From: Undibacterium hunanense
GTDB lineage: Bacteria; Pseudomonadota; Gammaproteobacteria; Burkholderiales; Burkholderiaceae_D
Length of the DNA: 64,000 bases
Assembly (NCBI RefSeq): GCF_014284335.1
Contig: NZ_JACOGF010000004.1
Location: 434,001-498,000, forward strand
Direction of reading: 5' to 3'
Shown here: positions 7,690-12,286 of the stretch, in pieces
Layout of the letters: the number at the start of each line of letters is the position of its first letter
Position numbering within the stretch: the stretch's first letter is position 1
Position numbers and translations under genes: made by a program
Notes under the pieces: model-generated
What the model was told of the DNA's origin: nothing
What the model saw: the letters and a program-made list of their open reading frames with translations, nothing else
Database searches by the model: none

Positions 7690-8613
7690 TTAAGCATTCA
7701 TTGTTACAGGTAAGACCCCAAATTTCTGCTCATACAAACTCACCAGCCAATCCACAAACACGCGCACGCGGGGTGATAACTGGCGGCGGTAAGGGTAGAG
7801 CGCGGTAACCTGCAATGGCGGGCTGTGCCAGTCAGCCAGCACTTCTACCAGGCGGCCCTCGTGCAAGGCATCTGCGATATGAAAACGTGGCAGCTGGATC
7901 AGGCCACAGCCGCTTTCTGCACAGGTGACATAGTTCTCGGCATCGTTGACTGACATCCAGCCACCGACATTAAACTCTTGCACCTGTCCATCAATGCTCA
8001 GCACAAAAGGGTAGTCTATCGTACCGGTACTGGAAAAGAACCTGACAGCCTGATGCTGCATTAAATCGTCCGGATGATGCGGTGTACCAAATTTGGCCAG
8101 ATACGCCGGGCTGGCACAAATTGCTTGCGGCATCATCGCCAGACGGCGTGCCACCAATGTTGAATCACGCGGGTTACCGCCGCGTATTACGCAGTCCACA
8201 CCTTCCCTTACCAGATCGACCAGACGGTCACCGCTGCTGATGACCAGGTCTATGCCGGGATAACGGTCACGGAATTCATGTATCTTCGGCAATACCACTT
8301 GTGTCGCATGGGTGCCGTGCATGTCCACCCGCAAGACCCCGCGTGGATTGGCGGCCACATGCCGCATCGATGCTTCGGCATCGTCCAGTTCACTGAGCAC
8401 ATGCACACAACGCTCATAAAAAGCCTGGCCATCGAGAGTAGTGCGGACCTGACGCGTGGTGCGTTCGAGCAGGCGGGTGCCCAATCGTGCTTCCAACTGC
8501 TTGATGGCATAGGTAGCGCTGGCACGGGGTACATCCAGCATATCTGCCGCCCGGCTAAAACTGCCGGTTTCGACAATGCGGGTGAATAGTTGCAAAGTAT
8601 CCAGTCTGTCCAT
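7690..8613 (-). CDS. LysR-family transcriptional regulator
   Basis: A 307-residue LysR protein: N-terminal winged helix (residues 1-60, with the RIVETGSFSRAAD helix-turn-helix) and a C-terminal substrate-binding fold (~90-295) that senses a small ligand. It is transcribed away from the adjacent SDR gene across a ~120-bp gap, the usual layout for a LysR regulator and its target. It is therefore likely to regulate the SDR and possibly itself. The CrgA/DsdC-like subgroup with 'MDRLDTLQLF' starts is common in Burkholderiales. Ligand unknown. Confidence 0.9.
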   Translation of the reverse strand: MDRLDTLQLFTRIVETGSFSRAADMLDVPRASATYAIKQLEARLGTRLLERTTRQVRTTLDGQAFYERCVHVLSELDDAEASMRHVAANPRGVLRVDMHGTHATQVVLPKIHEFRDRYPGIDLVISSGDRLVDLVREGVDCVIRGGNPRDSTLVARRLAMMPQAICASPAYLAKFGTPHHPDDLMQHQAVRFFSSTGTIDYPFVLSIDGQVQEFNVGGWMSVNDAENYVTCAESGCGLIQLPRFHIADALHEGRLVEVLADWHSPPLQVTALYPYRRQLSPRVRVFVDWLVSLYEQKFGVLPVTMNA

Positions 8614-8736
8614 GATTGTTGAGCTGTGTTGAATTATGTTCTAAGTTTATCAGTATTTATCTCATTTTATTGAATGGTTAAAGTGTATTCCAGACAGGCG
8701 ATATGGTCCTGTAGTCTTACATCACCGGAGTCAATC

Positions 8737-9477
8737 ATGAATAAAGATGCAACTAAAACAGCCATCATCACTGGCGCATCCCGTGGCATAGGCCAGGCAA
8801 TCGCGCTGCGTCTGGCGGCAGATGGTTTTGCCGTTGTGGTCAATTACGCCGGCAATGCCAGTAAAGCGCAAGAAACAGTAACTGCCATACAGGCGGCTGG
8901 CGGCAAGGCCATCGCCGTGCAGGGCGATGTTGCCAGGCCGGAGGATGTGGCGAAATTGTTTGCAACAGGCAAAGAAGTATTTGGCCGCATTGATGTGGTC
9001 GTCAATAGTGCTGGCGTCATGCCCATGGCAACCATCAATGACAGCAATCTGGATGCTTTTGACAAGGTCATTGCCACCAATCTGCGTGGCGCTTTTCTGG
9101 TACTGGCCCAGGCGGCCCAGCACGTGGAAAAAGGCGGTCGCATCATTGCATTGTCCACCAGCGTGATTGCCAAATCTTTTCCCGCCTATGGGCCGTATAT
9201 TGCCAGCAAGGCGGGGGTAGAAGGCCTGGTTCATGTACTGGCCAATGAATTGCGCGGGCGTGACATCACAGTTAATGCCATCGCCCCCGGCCCGGTGGGC
9301 ACCGAGCTGTTCTTCAATGGCAAGACCGAAGAACAAATTACCAACATCGCCAAAATGGCACCGATGGAACGCATAGGCACACCTGAAGAGATCGCTGCTG
9401 CCGTCGCCTTTCTGGCTGGCCCTGACGGTGCCTGGGTTAATTCGCAAGTGCTACGCGTCAACGGCGGCTACGTTTAA
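8737..9477 (+). CDS. SDR-family oxidoreductase
   Basis: A 246-residue classical short-chain dehydrogenase. It has the glycine-rich NAD(P)-binding motif TGASRGIGQAIA (~12-23), NSAG at ~92-95, and the catalytic Ser-Tyr-Lys triad with YxxxK in the 'YGPYIASKAG' region. The ATG at 8737 has GGAG 7-8 bp upstream, whereas the longer frame (from 8674) begins in the LysR promoter region, so 8737 is chosen. Substrate unknown. The divergent LysR regulator and nearby tautomerase suggest a small redox/detoxification module. Confidence 0.9.
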   Translation: MNKDATKTAIITGASRGIGQAIALRLAADGFAVVVNYAGNASKAQETVTAIQAAGGKAIAVQGDVARPEDVAKLFATGKEVFGRIDVVVNSAGVMPMATINDSNLDAFDKVIATNLRGAFLVLAQAAQHVEKGGRIIALSTSVIAKSFPAYGPYIASKAGVEGLVHVLANELRGRDITVNAIAPGPVGTELFFNGKTEEQITNIAKMAPMERIGTPEEIAAAVAFLAGPDGAWVNSQVLRVNGGYV

Positions 9478-9907: not shown

Positions 9908-10798
9908 TCACCACGGCTGACTGGCAAATTCCTCCACCAGAAAATCCAGCAAGGCCCGCACGGCGGGGGATAAGTGCCGGCGCGATGGAAACAAGGCATA
10001 AATGGTCATCACAGGGGCCGTCCATTCTGGCAATATGACTTGCAGTTGACCCTTGCTCAGGTGGTCTGCCATCAGATAGGTGGGCAGCAGGGTGATGCCG
10101 CCGTCAGCCAGCGCCGCCTGCAATAATACGGTCGCATCATTGGCGCTGAAGTGGCTGGCAATATCAACCAGTACGGCTTCATCAGCACGCTGGAAGCGCC
10201 AGGTGTTGCGGCCGTAATTGGCATGGCTCATACAGCGATGACTGGGTAGCTCTTGCGGATGTGCAGGTAAGCCAGATGTTCTGACATAAGCAGGCGATGC
10301 CACCAGGACAGAATCACATACCGCCAGTGGTCGTGCAATCAACAGCGGGTCGGGTTCACTGCTGATGCGTATCGCCAGGTCTACACGCGCCTCAACCAGA
10401 TTGACGGTGCTGTCGCCCACATGCAAATCGATCTTCAGCATAGTGTGCTGCGCCAGGAACTTGCTGATGGCACGTGCCAGATGACCAAAGGCAAATGAGG
10501 TACTGCAAGTCAGGCGTAACTGGCCGCGCAATTCAACGTTGTCGCTGCTGGTTTCTTCTTCTATGCTTTCCATCAGTGCCAGCATCTGCTGGCTGCGGCG
10601 CAGGCATTGTTCACCGGCATCGGTCAGCGTCACGCTTCGTGTGGTCCTTTGCAGCAGGCGTGCATTCAGCCAGCTTTCCAGTTCACTTACATAACGCGTC
10701 ACCATGGCACGCGACATGTCCAGCTTGTCGGCAGTGGCACTGAAACTGCCGCTGGAAGCAACCTCACAAAACACCCGCATGGCCGTCAGTCTGTCCAT
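9908..10798 (-). CDS. LysR-family transcriptional regulator
   Basis: A 296-residue LysR regulator with an N-terminal winged helix (residues 1-60, FCEVASSGSFSATADKL) and an effector-binding domain (~88-290). It is divergent from the MBL-fold gene across a 147-bp gap, which suggests that gene as its target. It resembles the LysR at 7690-8613 in architecture and subgroup, but the sequences differ clearly, so they are not recent duplicates. Confidence 0.9.
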   Translation of the reverse strand: MDRLTAMRVFCEVASSGSFSATADKLDMSRAMVTRYVSELESWLNARLLQRTTRSVTLTDAGEQCLRRSQQMLALMESIEEETSSDNVELRGQLRLTCSTSFAFGHLARAISKFLAQHTMLKIDLHVGDSTVNLVEARVDLAIRISSEPDPLLIARPLAVCDSVLVASPAYVRTSGLPAHPQELPSHRCMSHANYGRNTWRFQRADEAVLVDIASHFSANDATVLLQAALADGGITLLPTYLMADHLSKGQLQVILPEWTAPVMTIYALFPSRRHLSPAVRALLDFLVEEFASQPW

Positions 10799-10945
10799 AA
10801 TTTATTTTCTATTTGCTCTGTATTTGAAACGGTTATGCGCATTTTATCGTATTTATCTGTTCGAAAATTGAAATTAAACTACAAGCACTGAATCACTTTC
10901 TGATTCAAACCACAGCTCAAACTTAATTCAAATCAGGAGTTCATC

Positions 10946-11809
10946 ATGTTACGCACCACTGTATTAGCCGCCACACTCGCTGTCACTTTTGCCTCTGCCG
11001 AAGCCGCTACGCCCTTGCAAGTCAAAGTCTATAACGCCGATGGCAATAGTTTTAATGTCAATTCCACCCTGGTGTATGGCGAAAAAGAAGCCCTGGTGAT
11101 AGATGCCGGTTTTACCCGTGCCGATGCTTTGCGGATTGCTGCCAATGTCCTTGACAGTGGCAAGCAGTTGAAAACCATACTGGTCAGCCAGGCAGATCCT
11201 GATTATTACTTTGGCGTTGAAGCACTGAAAGAAATTTTCCCGCAGGCCGACGTCGTCGCTACCCCAGCCGTGCTGGAAAAACTGAGCGCCAAGCTGGCAG
11301 GCAAGGTTGCTTTCTGGGGCCCTAAAATGGGTGCAAATGCGCCTCGCACACCGGTCTTGCCCAAGGCATTGAGCGGCAATAGTGTGACCGTAGACGGTGA
11401 AGTGGTTGAATTGCGTGGTAACCAGGGTGTGCTGGCACACCGCCCTTATTTCTGGATACCATCAATCAAGGCCATTGTCGGCAACATCGGTGTGTTCGGC
11501 AATATGCATGTATGGACAGCTGATACCCAAACCGTGGCCGAACGCAGTGCCTGGGTCGCGCAGCTGGATGAAATGGCAGCCCTGCAACCGAAAATCGTCG
11601 TGCCTGGCCACATGAAATCCGGCACAACGGTTGATATCAGTGCAATTACTTATACCAAGGGCTATCTGCTGTCGTTTGAAAAAAATGCAGCCGCCACCAA
11701 GACCAGTGCAGAACTCATCGACGCCATGAAAAAAGCCTACCCTGATGCGCCACCAGGTTTGTCACTGGACATCGGTGCCAAGGTGAACAAGGGTGAGATG
11801 AAGTGGTAA
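10946..11809 (+). CDS. Secreted MBL-fold protein lacking most metal ligands
   Basis: A 287-residue protein with a signal peptide (residues 1-21, ending ASAEA). The fold is metallo-beta-lactamase-like: the 'LVIDAGFTRADAL' strand-loop (~51-63) and the late GHM segment (~223-225) are present. The metal motif HxHxDH, expected near residue 80, reads QADPDY, so both histidines and the last His are replaced and only one Asp remains. It may therefore be a non-metal or altered-metal enzyme, or a binding protein. AGGAG precedes the ATG by 7 bp. A divergent LysR gene suggests inducible expression. Confidence 0.82.
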   Translation: MLRTTVLAATLAVTFASAEAATPLQVKVYNADGNSFNVNSTLVYGEKEALVIDAGFTRADALRIAANVLDSGKQLKTILVSQADPDYYFGVEALKEIFPQADVVATPAVLEKLSAKLAGKVAFWGPKMGANAPRTPVLPKALSGNSVTVDGEVVELRGNQGVLAHRPYFWIPSIKAIVGNIGVFGNMHVWTADTQTVAERSAWVAQLDEMAALQPKIVVPGHMKSGTTVDISAITYTKGYLLSFEKNAAATKTSAELIDAMKKAYPDAPPGLSLDIGAKVNKGEMKW

Positions 11810-11843: not shown

Positions 11844-11871
11844 AGCATGGCGGACAACAGTTCGCCATGCT
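11844..11871 (+). terminator. Terminator hairpin after the MBL gene
   Basis: A perfect 9-bp stem, 11844-11852 with 11863-11871, 35 bp after the MBL stop. It buries the ATG at 11867, which argues against that codon as the start of the next gene. Confidence 0.65.
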
Positions 11872-11896
11872 ATTTACACATGAAAGAGGTGGGCAA

Positions 11897-12286
11897 TTGA
11901 CTAATCTGGACATCATCAAAAGTACTTATGAAGGAAAAACTTCAGAAGAAAACGGCAAGAATCTCCAACAATACCTGGCCGCCGACGCCAGGTGGACAGA
12001 GGCACAAGGCTTTCCTTATGCCGGTACCTATACAGGCTTTGCCGAGATAGCAAAAAACGTCTTCCAGCGCCTCGCCACAGAATGGTCAGACTATAAATTT
12101 ACGGTCGAAGATTATGTTGCTGGTGATGACAAGGTCGTGGCCTATGGTACTTATACTGGTACGCATAAGATCAGCCAGAAAGCTTTCAGCGCCAGGGTTG
12201 CCCACCTGTGGCAATTAAAGGATGGCAAGATCATTCGCTTTGAGCAGTTTGTTGACAGCATGCCGGTTGTTGCGGCCATGGCCTGA
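11897..12286 (+). CDS. NTF2-like (SnoaL-type) protein
   Basis: A 129-residue protein of the nuclear-transport-factor-2-like superfamily: an N-terminal helix, the 'LAADARWTEAQGFPYAGTYTG' type segment and the beta-sheet ending in LWQLKDGKIIRFEQFVDS are typical. Members are small isomerases, dehydratases or ligand binders. I chose TTG 11897 because GAGG lies 7 bp before it. The upstream ATG (11867, 10 residues longer) sits in a terminator stem and has no Shine-Dalgarno sequence. It follows the MBL gene on the same strand but is separated by that hairpin. Substrate unknown. Confidence 0.78.
   Translation: MTNLDIIKSTYEGKTSEENGKNLQQYLAADARWTEAQGFPYAGTYTGFAEIAKNVFQRLATEWSDYKFTVEDYVAGDDKVVAYGTYTGTHKISQKAFSARVAHLWQLKDGKIIRFEQFVDSMPVVAAMA

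Follow-up and report, generated by a model that had tools for sequence, protein, structure and literature searches.

Is a metallo-beta-lactamase (MBL)-fold protein that lacks the hallmark motif of its superfamily a broken enzyme or one with a rebuilt active site? The question arises at a locus of Undibacterium hunanense, within a 64,000-nt stretch of DNA that we analysed as a whole (hereafter the window), where HxHxDH is replaced by QADPDY. A passage in the superfamily review PMC7785958 gives HxHxDH as the superfamily hallmark and lists the metal ligands as His/Gln116, His118, His196, Asp120, Cys221/His121 and His263. A previous sequence-only reading had described the metal site as erased, with one ligand left, in a gene that kept its fold and signal peptide, stood under a divergent LysR regulator and was maintained by selection. 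The gene and its putative export signal are as follows:

10946..11809, plus strand: Vmh-like MBL-fold protein of the DPD type, ATG start, 287 aa
10946..11008, plus strand: probable signal peptide, aa 1-21, from the sequence, the low pLDDT and the similar N-termini of eight relatives

An AGGAG (10935-10939) lies ahead of the open reading frame (ORF), whose product matched the Pfam model Lactamase_B (PF00753) over aa 36-106 with 38.7 bits (cut-off 22.7). The AlphaFold2 model, for which we supplied a 98-row alignment, had a mean pLDDT of 94.9 and a pTM of 0.89, its low-pLDDT part being aa 1-20. Its best match among solved folds was 8D2Z (Z 24.8, rmsd 2.7, 252 residues aligned), and the comparison with CphA (3F9O) gave Z 21.8, rmsd 2.9 and 212 aligned residues; a PDB sequence search with the single protein returned no relevant match. 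As modelled, the product has the alpha-beta-beta-alpha fold of the MBL superfamily, in agreement with what had been read from the letters. We judged the N-terminus, MLRTTVLAATLAVTFASAEAA, to be signal-peptide-like, as had been claimed, and the protein looks exported, to the periplasm. The genome holds one copy of this protein by protein search and 15 matches to the Lactamase_B model. Among the best 80 of 310 matches, the nearest named relatives were from Undibacterium umbellatum, U. pigrum and a Burkholderiales MAG, each with 95% protein identity. Scans of the window for tRNAs and Rfam families found none.

We placed the ligand positions on the protein, whose motif stretch is ILVSQADPDYYFG, by a profile alignment with CphA. 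In our assignment, H116 corresponds to Q82, H118 to D84, D120 to D86, 121 to Y87, H196 approximately to V162, C221 to I181 and H263 to H222. The positions and their states among aligned rows were:

11189..11206, plus strand: QADPDY replacing HxHxDH, aa 82-87, from the sequence and the family counts
11195..11197, plus strand: D84, the H118 position; Asp in 134/148 rows, His in 14/148
11201..11203, plus strand: D86, retained equivalent of the canonical D120 ligand; Asp in 147/148 rows
11438..11440, plus strand: H165, fixed in the window's subclade (97/97); mostly D, Y or N in other subclades
11486..11488, plus strand: I181, the D221 ligand position; Asp in 14/14 canonical rows, I/V/T/L in 134/134 Asp-84 rows
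11609..11611, plus strand: H222 of VPGH, the canonical H263 ligand; His in 148/148 rows

HxHxDH is absent from the window protein, and His occurs at neither 84 nor 87 in any of the 134 Asp-84 rows. All 134 have Tyr or Phe at 87 and lack Asp at 181, whereas all 14 His-84 rows combine H87 with D181, so that the states of positions 84, 87 and 181 are coupled with 0 exceptions in 148 aligned rows (window included). The close-relative search, which kept the best 80 of 310 matches, used peptide seeds including QADPDYYF, and therefore its 70 non-redundant rows, all QADPDY, give no measure of motif frequency. This bias does not touch rows obtained by whole-protein or family searches, and in these alone (n = 77, window not counted; 63 Asp-84 and 14 His-84) the coupling was the same. 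The rows more than 50% identical to the window protein numbered 97, with Gln at 82 in 96 and Asn in one; the remaining Asp-84 groups comprised 20 HxDPD, six SGDPDF, six QxDPDYYFS and five other rows. Because rows below 50% identity were grouped by motif, the fixity of D84 and D86 inside such groups is partly a matter of definition, and we relied on the coupling between positions instead. After thinning, which left 85 Asp-84, 12 sister and 17 remote canonical rows, a His anywhere at 158-164, the H196 region, occurred in three of 85 Asp-84 rows versus 25 of 29 canonical rows. The canonical ligand at 196 is gone in nearly all Asp-84 rows, and position 116 varies (Q, H, S and others). The coupling of 84, 87 and 181 thus indicates that at least three ligands were lost together, one Asp was gained and two ligands were kept. 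Within the motif only D86 remains of four ligands, as had been stated; the word "erased" goes too far, since H222 is kept outside the motif and D84 is a conserved new Asp, a combination that argues for a rebuilt site. Searches of the open-access literature for the motif strings and for the NCBIfam/CDD names gave no match, which does not by itself make the variant unpublished.

The possibility that the motif reflects a degenerating gene or a sequencing artefact found no supporting point; we regard it as refuted and extremely improbable. Restored His residues in close homologues would have spoken for it, and 0 of the 96 other rows above 50% identity has His at 84 or 87. Its genus-level distribution also argues against an artefact: 26 of 43 genomes in the genus search gave matches and 25 of 43, this genome included, encode an Asp-84 type protein, while genome G438 had only a 30% canonical relative. 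In a sample across the phylum, 44 of 398 genomes matched NF040580 at E 1e-20. The dN/dS ratios against seven relatives were 0.024-0.068, values that are rough because dS was high (0.9-2.2); one relative, L008, was omitted for length. Among close relatives the codons of D84, D86, Y87 and H222 vary synonymously while the residues stay unchanged. The gene is under strong purifying selection, and the earlier view that selection maintains it holds.

The Asp-84 rows also hold together in trees. With the motif columns removed, a careful tree of 56 rows, ten of them HDHPDH sisters, placed all Asp-84 rows on one side of a branch with 92/84 support (not starred), recovered in 94% of bootstrap trees; the sister clade had 100/98. 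When L144 was the single, long canonical row, trees put it in the window's subclade (95/89 in one), and an AU test on that set did not reject a single DPD clade (p 0.163). Reversion to the canonical site in L144 was considered and dropped, as this row left the window's subclade to join its relatives once they were added. The L144-only tree omitted eight remote canonical rows and the 56-row tree omitted 11 (L178-L185, L203-L205), and both were thinned at 80% identity. Judged from these trees, a single origin of the Asp-84 site is favoured, not proved.

Upstream of the gene, the divergent LysR regulator reported earlier is present, together with a conserved stretch between the two genes:

9908..10798, minus strand: divergent LysR-type regulator, conserved partner, 147-nt gap to the MBL gene
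10811..10859, no strand assigned: conserved intergenic block, candidate LysR or promoter site, ATTTGCTC...TGAAAC...ATTTTAT...TTTATCTG

The block was compared in the window and 22 loci picked by hand from the 75 with LysR. Of the 80 closest named loci (best 80 of 310), 75 have a divergent LysR gene within 500 nt, its product being 54-89% identical to that of the window; one of the five without it, L042, has just 133 nt of upstream sequence. By our own count, 13 of the 20 HxDPD rows had LysR (for one of the other seven, the upstream sequence is 217 nt), as did 6/6 SGDPDF rows and 3/5 other DPD rows. We found no divergent LysR in the six QxDPDYYFS rows or the 12 sister rows, and none in the 11 listed remote canonical rows (two more are unlisted, and several have just 387-650 nt upstream). 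The pairing is thus not universal, as LysR is missing from 7/20 HxDPD and 6/6 QxDPDYYFS rows. DPD-type rows L134, L135, L138-L140, L142, L143 and L176 read QSDPDYYFS, QADPDYYFS or xNDPDYYFG, and no LysR partner was found for them. We chose 37 partner rows (36 distinct) for a LysR protein tree, where they fell on one side of a branch (100/99) versus 11 paralogues, which came from the window's own genome only and left out one match with a stop codon. The window carries the module, in which an Asp-84 MBL gene is accompanied by a divergent LysR gene of this one group. This genome also contains another divergent LysR-MBL pair, L211 (G000:C16:96507-99500), in which the MBL motif is canonical (THLHPDHVGG). 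Near the MBL pair in the window, a LysR gene (7690-8613, minus strand) and a short-chain dehydrogenase gene (8674-9477, plus strand) are divergent in the same layout.

The genes on the other side differ among relatives. By BLAST, 57 of the 80 named loci (best 80 of 310) have a DsbA-like gene (PF01323, CGWC) no more than 2.5 kb downstream and on the strand of the MBL gene; it lies within about 100 nt in 22 of them, and one of the 23 loci without it has zero downstream sequence. Clustering of ORFs with the LysR and MBL ORFs removed, with full 4-kb flanks in 61 of 80 loci, found it in 55 of 80; the next plus-strand neighbour clusters reached 20 of 80, and one 49-locus cluster consisted of minus-strand frames of the same stretch. 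We therefore dropped the idea of a bare two-gene LysR-MBL module. Among 121 further loci, a total that includes repeated entries of one gene, the DsbA-like gene was also found at 18, beside some HxDPD-type genes; no SGDPDF row and no canonical row was among those 18. No obvious signal peptide was seen in the DsbA-like CGWC proteins L013:5193-5837, L006:5350-5991 and L118:838-1488. The DsbA-like gene is absent beside the window's MBL gene and those of its nearest relatives L002-L005, and the only matches in the genome, at 35% and 28%, lie elsewhere. The 35% paralogue (G000:C86:179506-180087) adjoins a divergent LysR gene (C86:180237-181100). Ancestrally, LysR, MBL and DsbA-like genes may have formed one module in this part of the family, and the window's lineage would then have lost the DsbA-like gene. 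The place of this gene is occupied as follows:

11867-12286: SnoaL-like gene, separated by 57 nt from the MBL gene upstream of it, at the site taken by the DsbA-like gene in most relatives

SnoaL-like matches were found at nine of the 80 named loci, two of them at 81-85% and seven at 35-40%, and were separated from the MBL gene by 84-964 nt; the SnoaL-like gene is thus no general partner. Carriage by a mobile element was also considered: a phage search returned two records, both from Acinetobacter, at 44%, and a plasmid search returned 210, of which 209 were below 60% identity (66 from Pantoea and 64 from Rhizobium), with no sign of mobility for the window's copy.

Among named families, the best NCBIfam model was NF040580 (Vmh family MBL fold metallo-hydrolase), with 297.2 bits, under its cut-off of 430. 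The window protein shares with its members full-length homology, the DPD core, VPGH/IPGH and a GEMKW C-terminus, and their neighbourhoods agree as well, with a divergent LysR in the 6/6 SGDPDF rows and in a Pantoea record. It differs from Vmh in falling below the equivalog cut-off and in having QADPDY and H165 versus SGDPDF and mostly Y165. All seven Vmh-family proteins over the NCBI cut-off that we read carry SGDPDF, namely six loci and the Pantoea record, which is annotated as Vmh family and scored 475.8 bits; members of the named family thus also lack most canonical ligands. The class B metallo-beta-lactamase models of NCBIfam (core, B1 and B3) gave 24.9, 18.1 and 14.5 bits against cut-offs of 100, 200 and 240, and none was reached. 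An excerpt of the review PMC9604146 places Vmh in several Vibrio species and credits the description of its kinetics and beta-lactamase activity, with a sigmoidal curve for carbapenems, to Lu, Hsu and Lin, and a passage in PMC10740994 lists VMH as a Vibrio vulnificus metallohydrolase.

The nearest clade in the tree, the HDHPDH sisters (L144, L190-L200), has a C-terminal Trp and many fixed positions in common with the window protein but keeps HxHxDH, Asp at 181 and, in 12/12, His at 163. The subclass B2 enzymes CphA and Sfh-I have the same fold (Z 21.2-21.8), and position 116 is likewise not His (NxHxDR); their one-zinc site uses D120 and H263. The window protein differs from them, at 15-19% identity, by Asp in place of H118 and by the loss of H196 and C221. 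8D2Z, a Burkholderia cenocepacia MBL superfamily protein, is non-canonical as well but in the opposite pattern, with HYHAVR and, as we judged the alignment, Arg at the H263 position. In Vibrio cholerae VarR-VarG, a LysR gene is likewise divergent from an MBL gene, although VarG, according to part of PMC5595328, retains the ligands His152, His154, Asp156, His238, Asp257 and His301.

A widespread family with the same swap, often beside the same control gene, looks like a rebuilt active site and not like a broken enzyme. As the best explanation we tentatively favour, at a little under an even chance, an exported enzyme under LysR control whose active site, formed by D84, D86 and H222, was rebuilt and probably takes one metal; the alignment puts this trio at the metal site of the fold. 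The two-zinc site would have been rebuilt, probably once, and then kept in a large Vmh-like clade. Near the former Zn2 site, the trio would bind one divalent ion or else an activated water, and positions 82 and 165, which vary, would shape the substrate pocket. Being oxygen-rich, such a 2-Asp-1-His site might prefer Mn, Fe, Ca or Mg to Zn. The LysR protein would sense a compound and switch on the MBL enzyme and, in many relatives, the DsbA-like thiol-disulfide protein too; the latter gene hints at reactive, oxidising or thiol-active compounds. The old LysR partner and the putative signal peptide fit an inducible exported enzyme. By analogy with the activity reported for Vibrio Vmh, we would guess at a lactam- or lactone-like ring as substrate. 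Against a one-metal site, three ligands (two Asp, one His) are few, 87 (Y/F) and 181 (I/V/T/L) add no obvious further one, and D86 and H222, being invariant or nearly so in canonical rows too, may be retained for structural reasons.

The main rival, which the earlier reading had allowed for, is a metal-free enzyme in which D84 or D86 forms with H222 an acid-base pair, or acts as nucleophile, in the old metal pocket. We consider it rather unlikely. In its favour, every Asp-84 row has replacements at three ligand positions, two being filled by Tyr/Phe or hydrophobic/Thr residues, and the trio is still conserved; against it, the two retained residues are Zn2-type ligands. That same conservation counts against a non-catalytic pseudoenzyme that binds or senses a periplasmic ligand, as does the activity that the excerpt of PMC9604146 reports for Vmh. 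Strong constraint is possible without catalysis, and part of PMC4390876 describes cyanobacterial Flv1/Flv2 as lacking canonical ligands at the diiron site; we nevertheless hold this reading to be unlikely. An ordinary two-zinc MBL that draws its ligands from unusual positions (Q82 or H82, H165 and H188) seems very unlikely, although Gln116 is among the zinc ligands in the passage of PMC7785958. In the thinned Asp-84 rows, H82 (17/85) and H165 (52/85) exclude each other, which may reflect a single His exchanged across the pocket, and H188 is present in 81/85. This 82/165 pattern follows subclades, though, 16/85 rows have neither His, and no Asp-84 row has an acidic residue at 181.

It is possible, and on balance somewhat doubtful, that the whole branch, the Vmh group filed as a carbapenem-hydrolysing metallo-beta-lactamase included, abandoned the two-zinc machinery for metal-free Asp-His chemistry or for a site of two Asp and one His with a single hard metal. 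The label "metallo-hydrolase" on Asp-84 genes is an assumption. A conserved, regulated clade without the hallmark HxHxDH, whose namesake is reported to be a beta-lactamase, raises the testable question of what replaces the two zincs.
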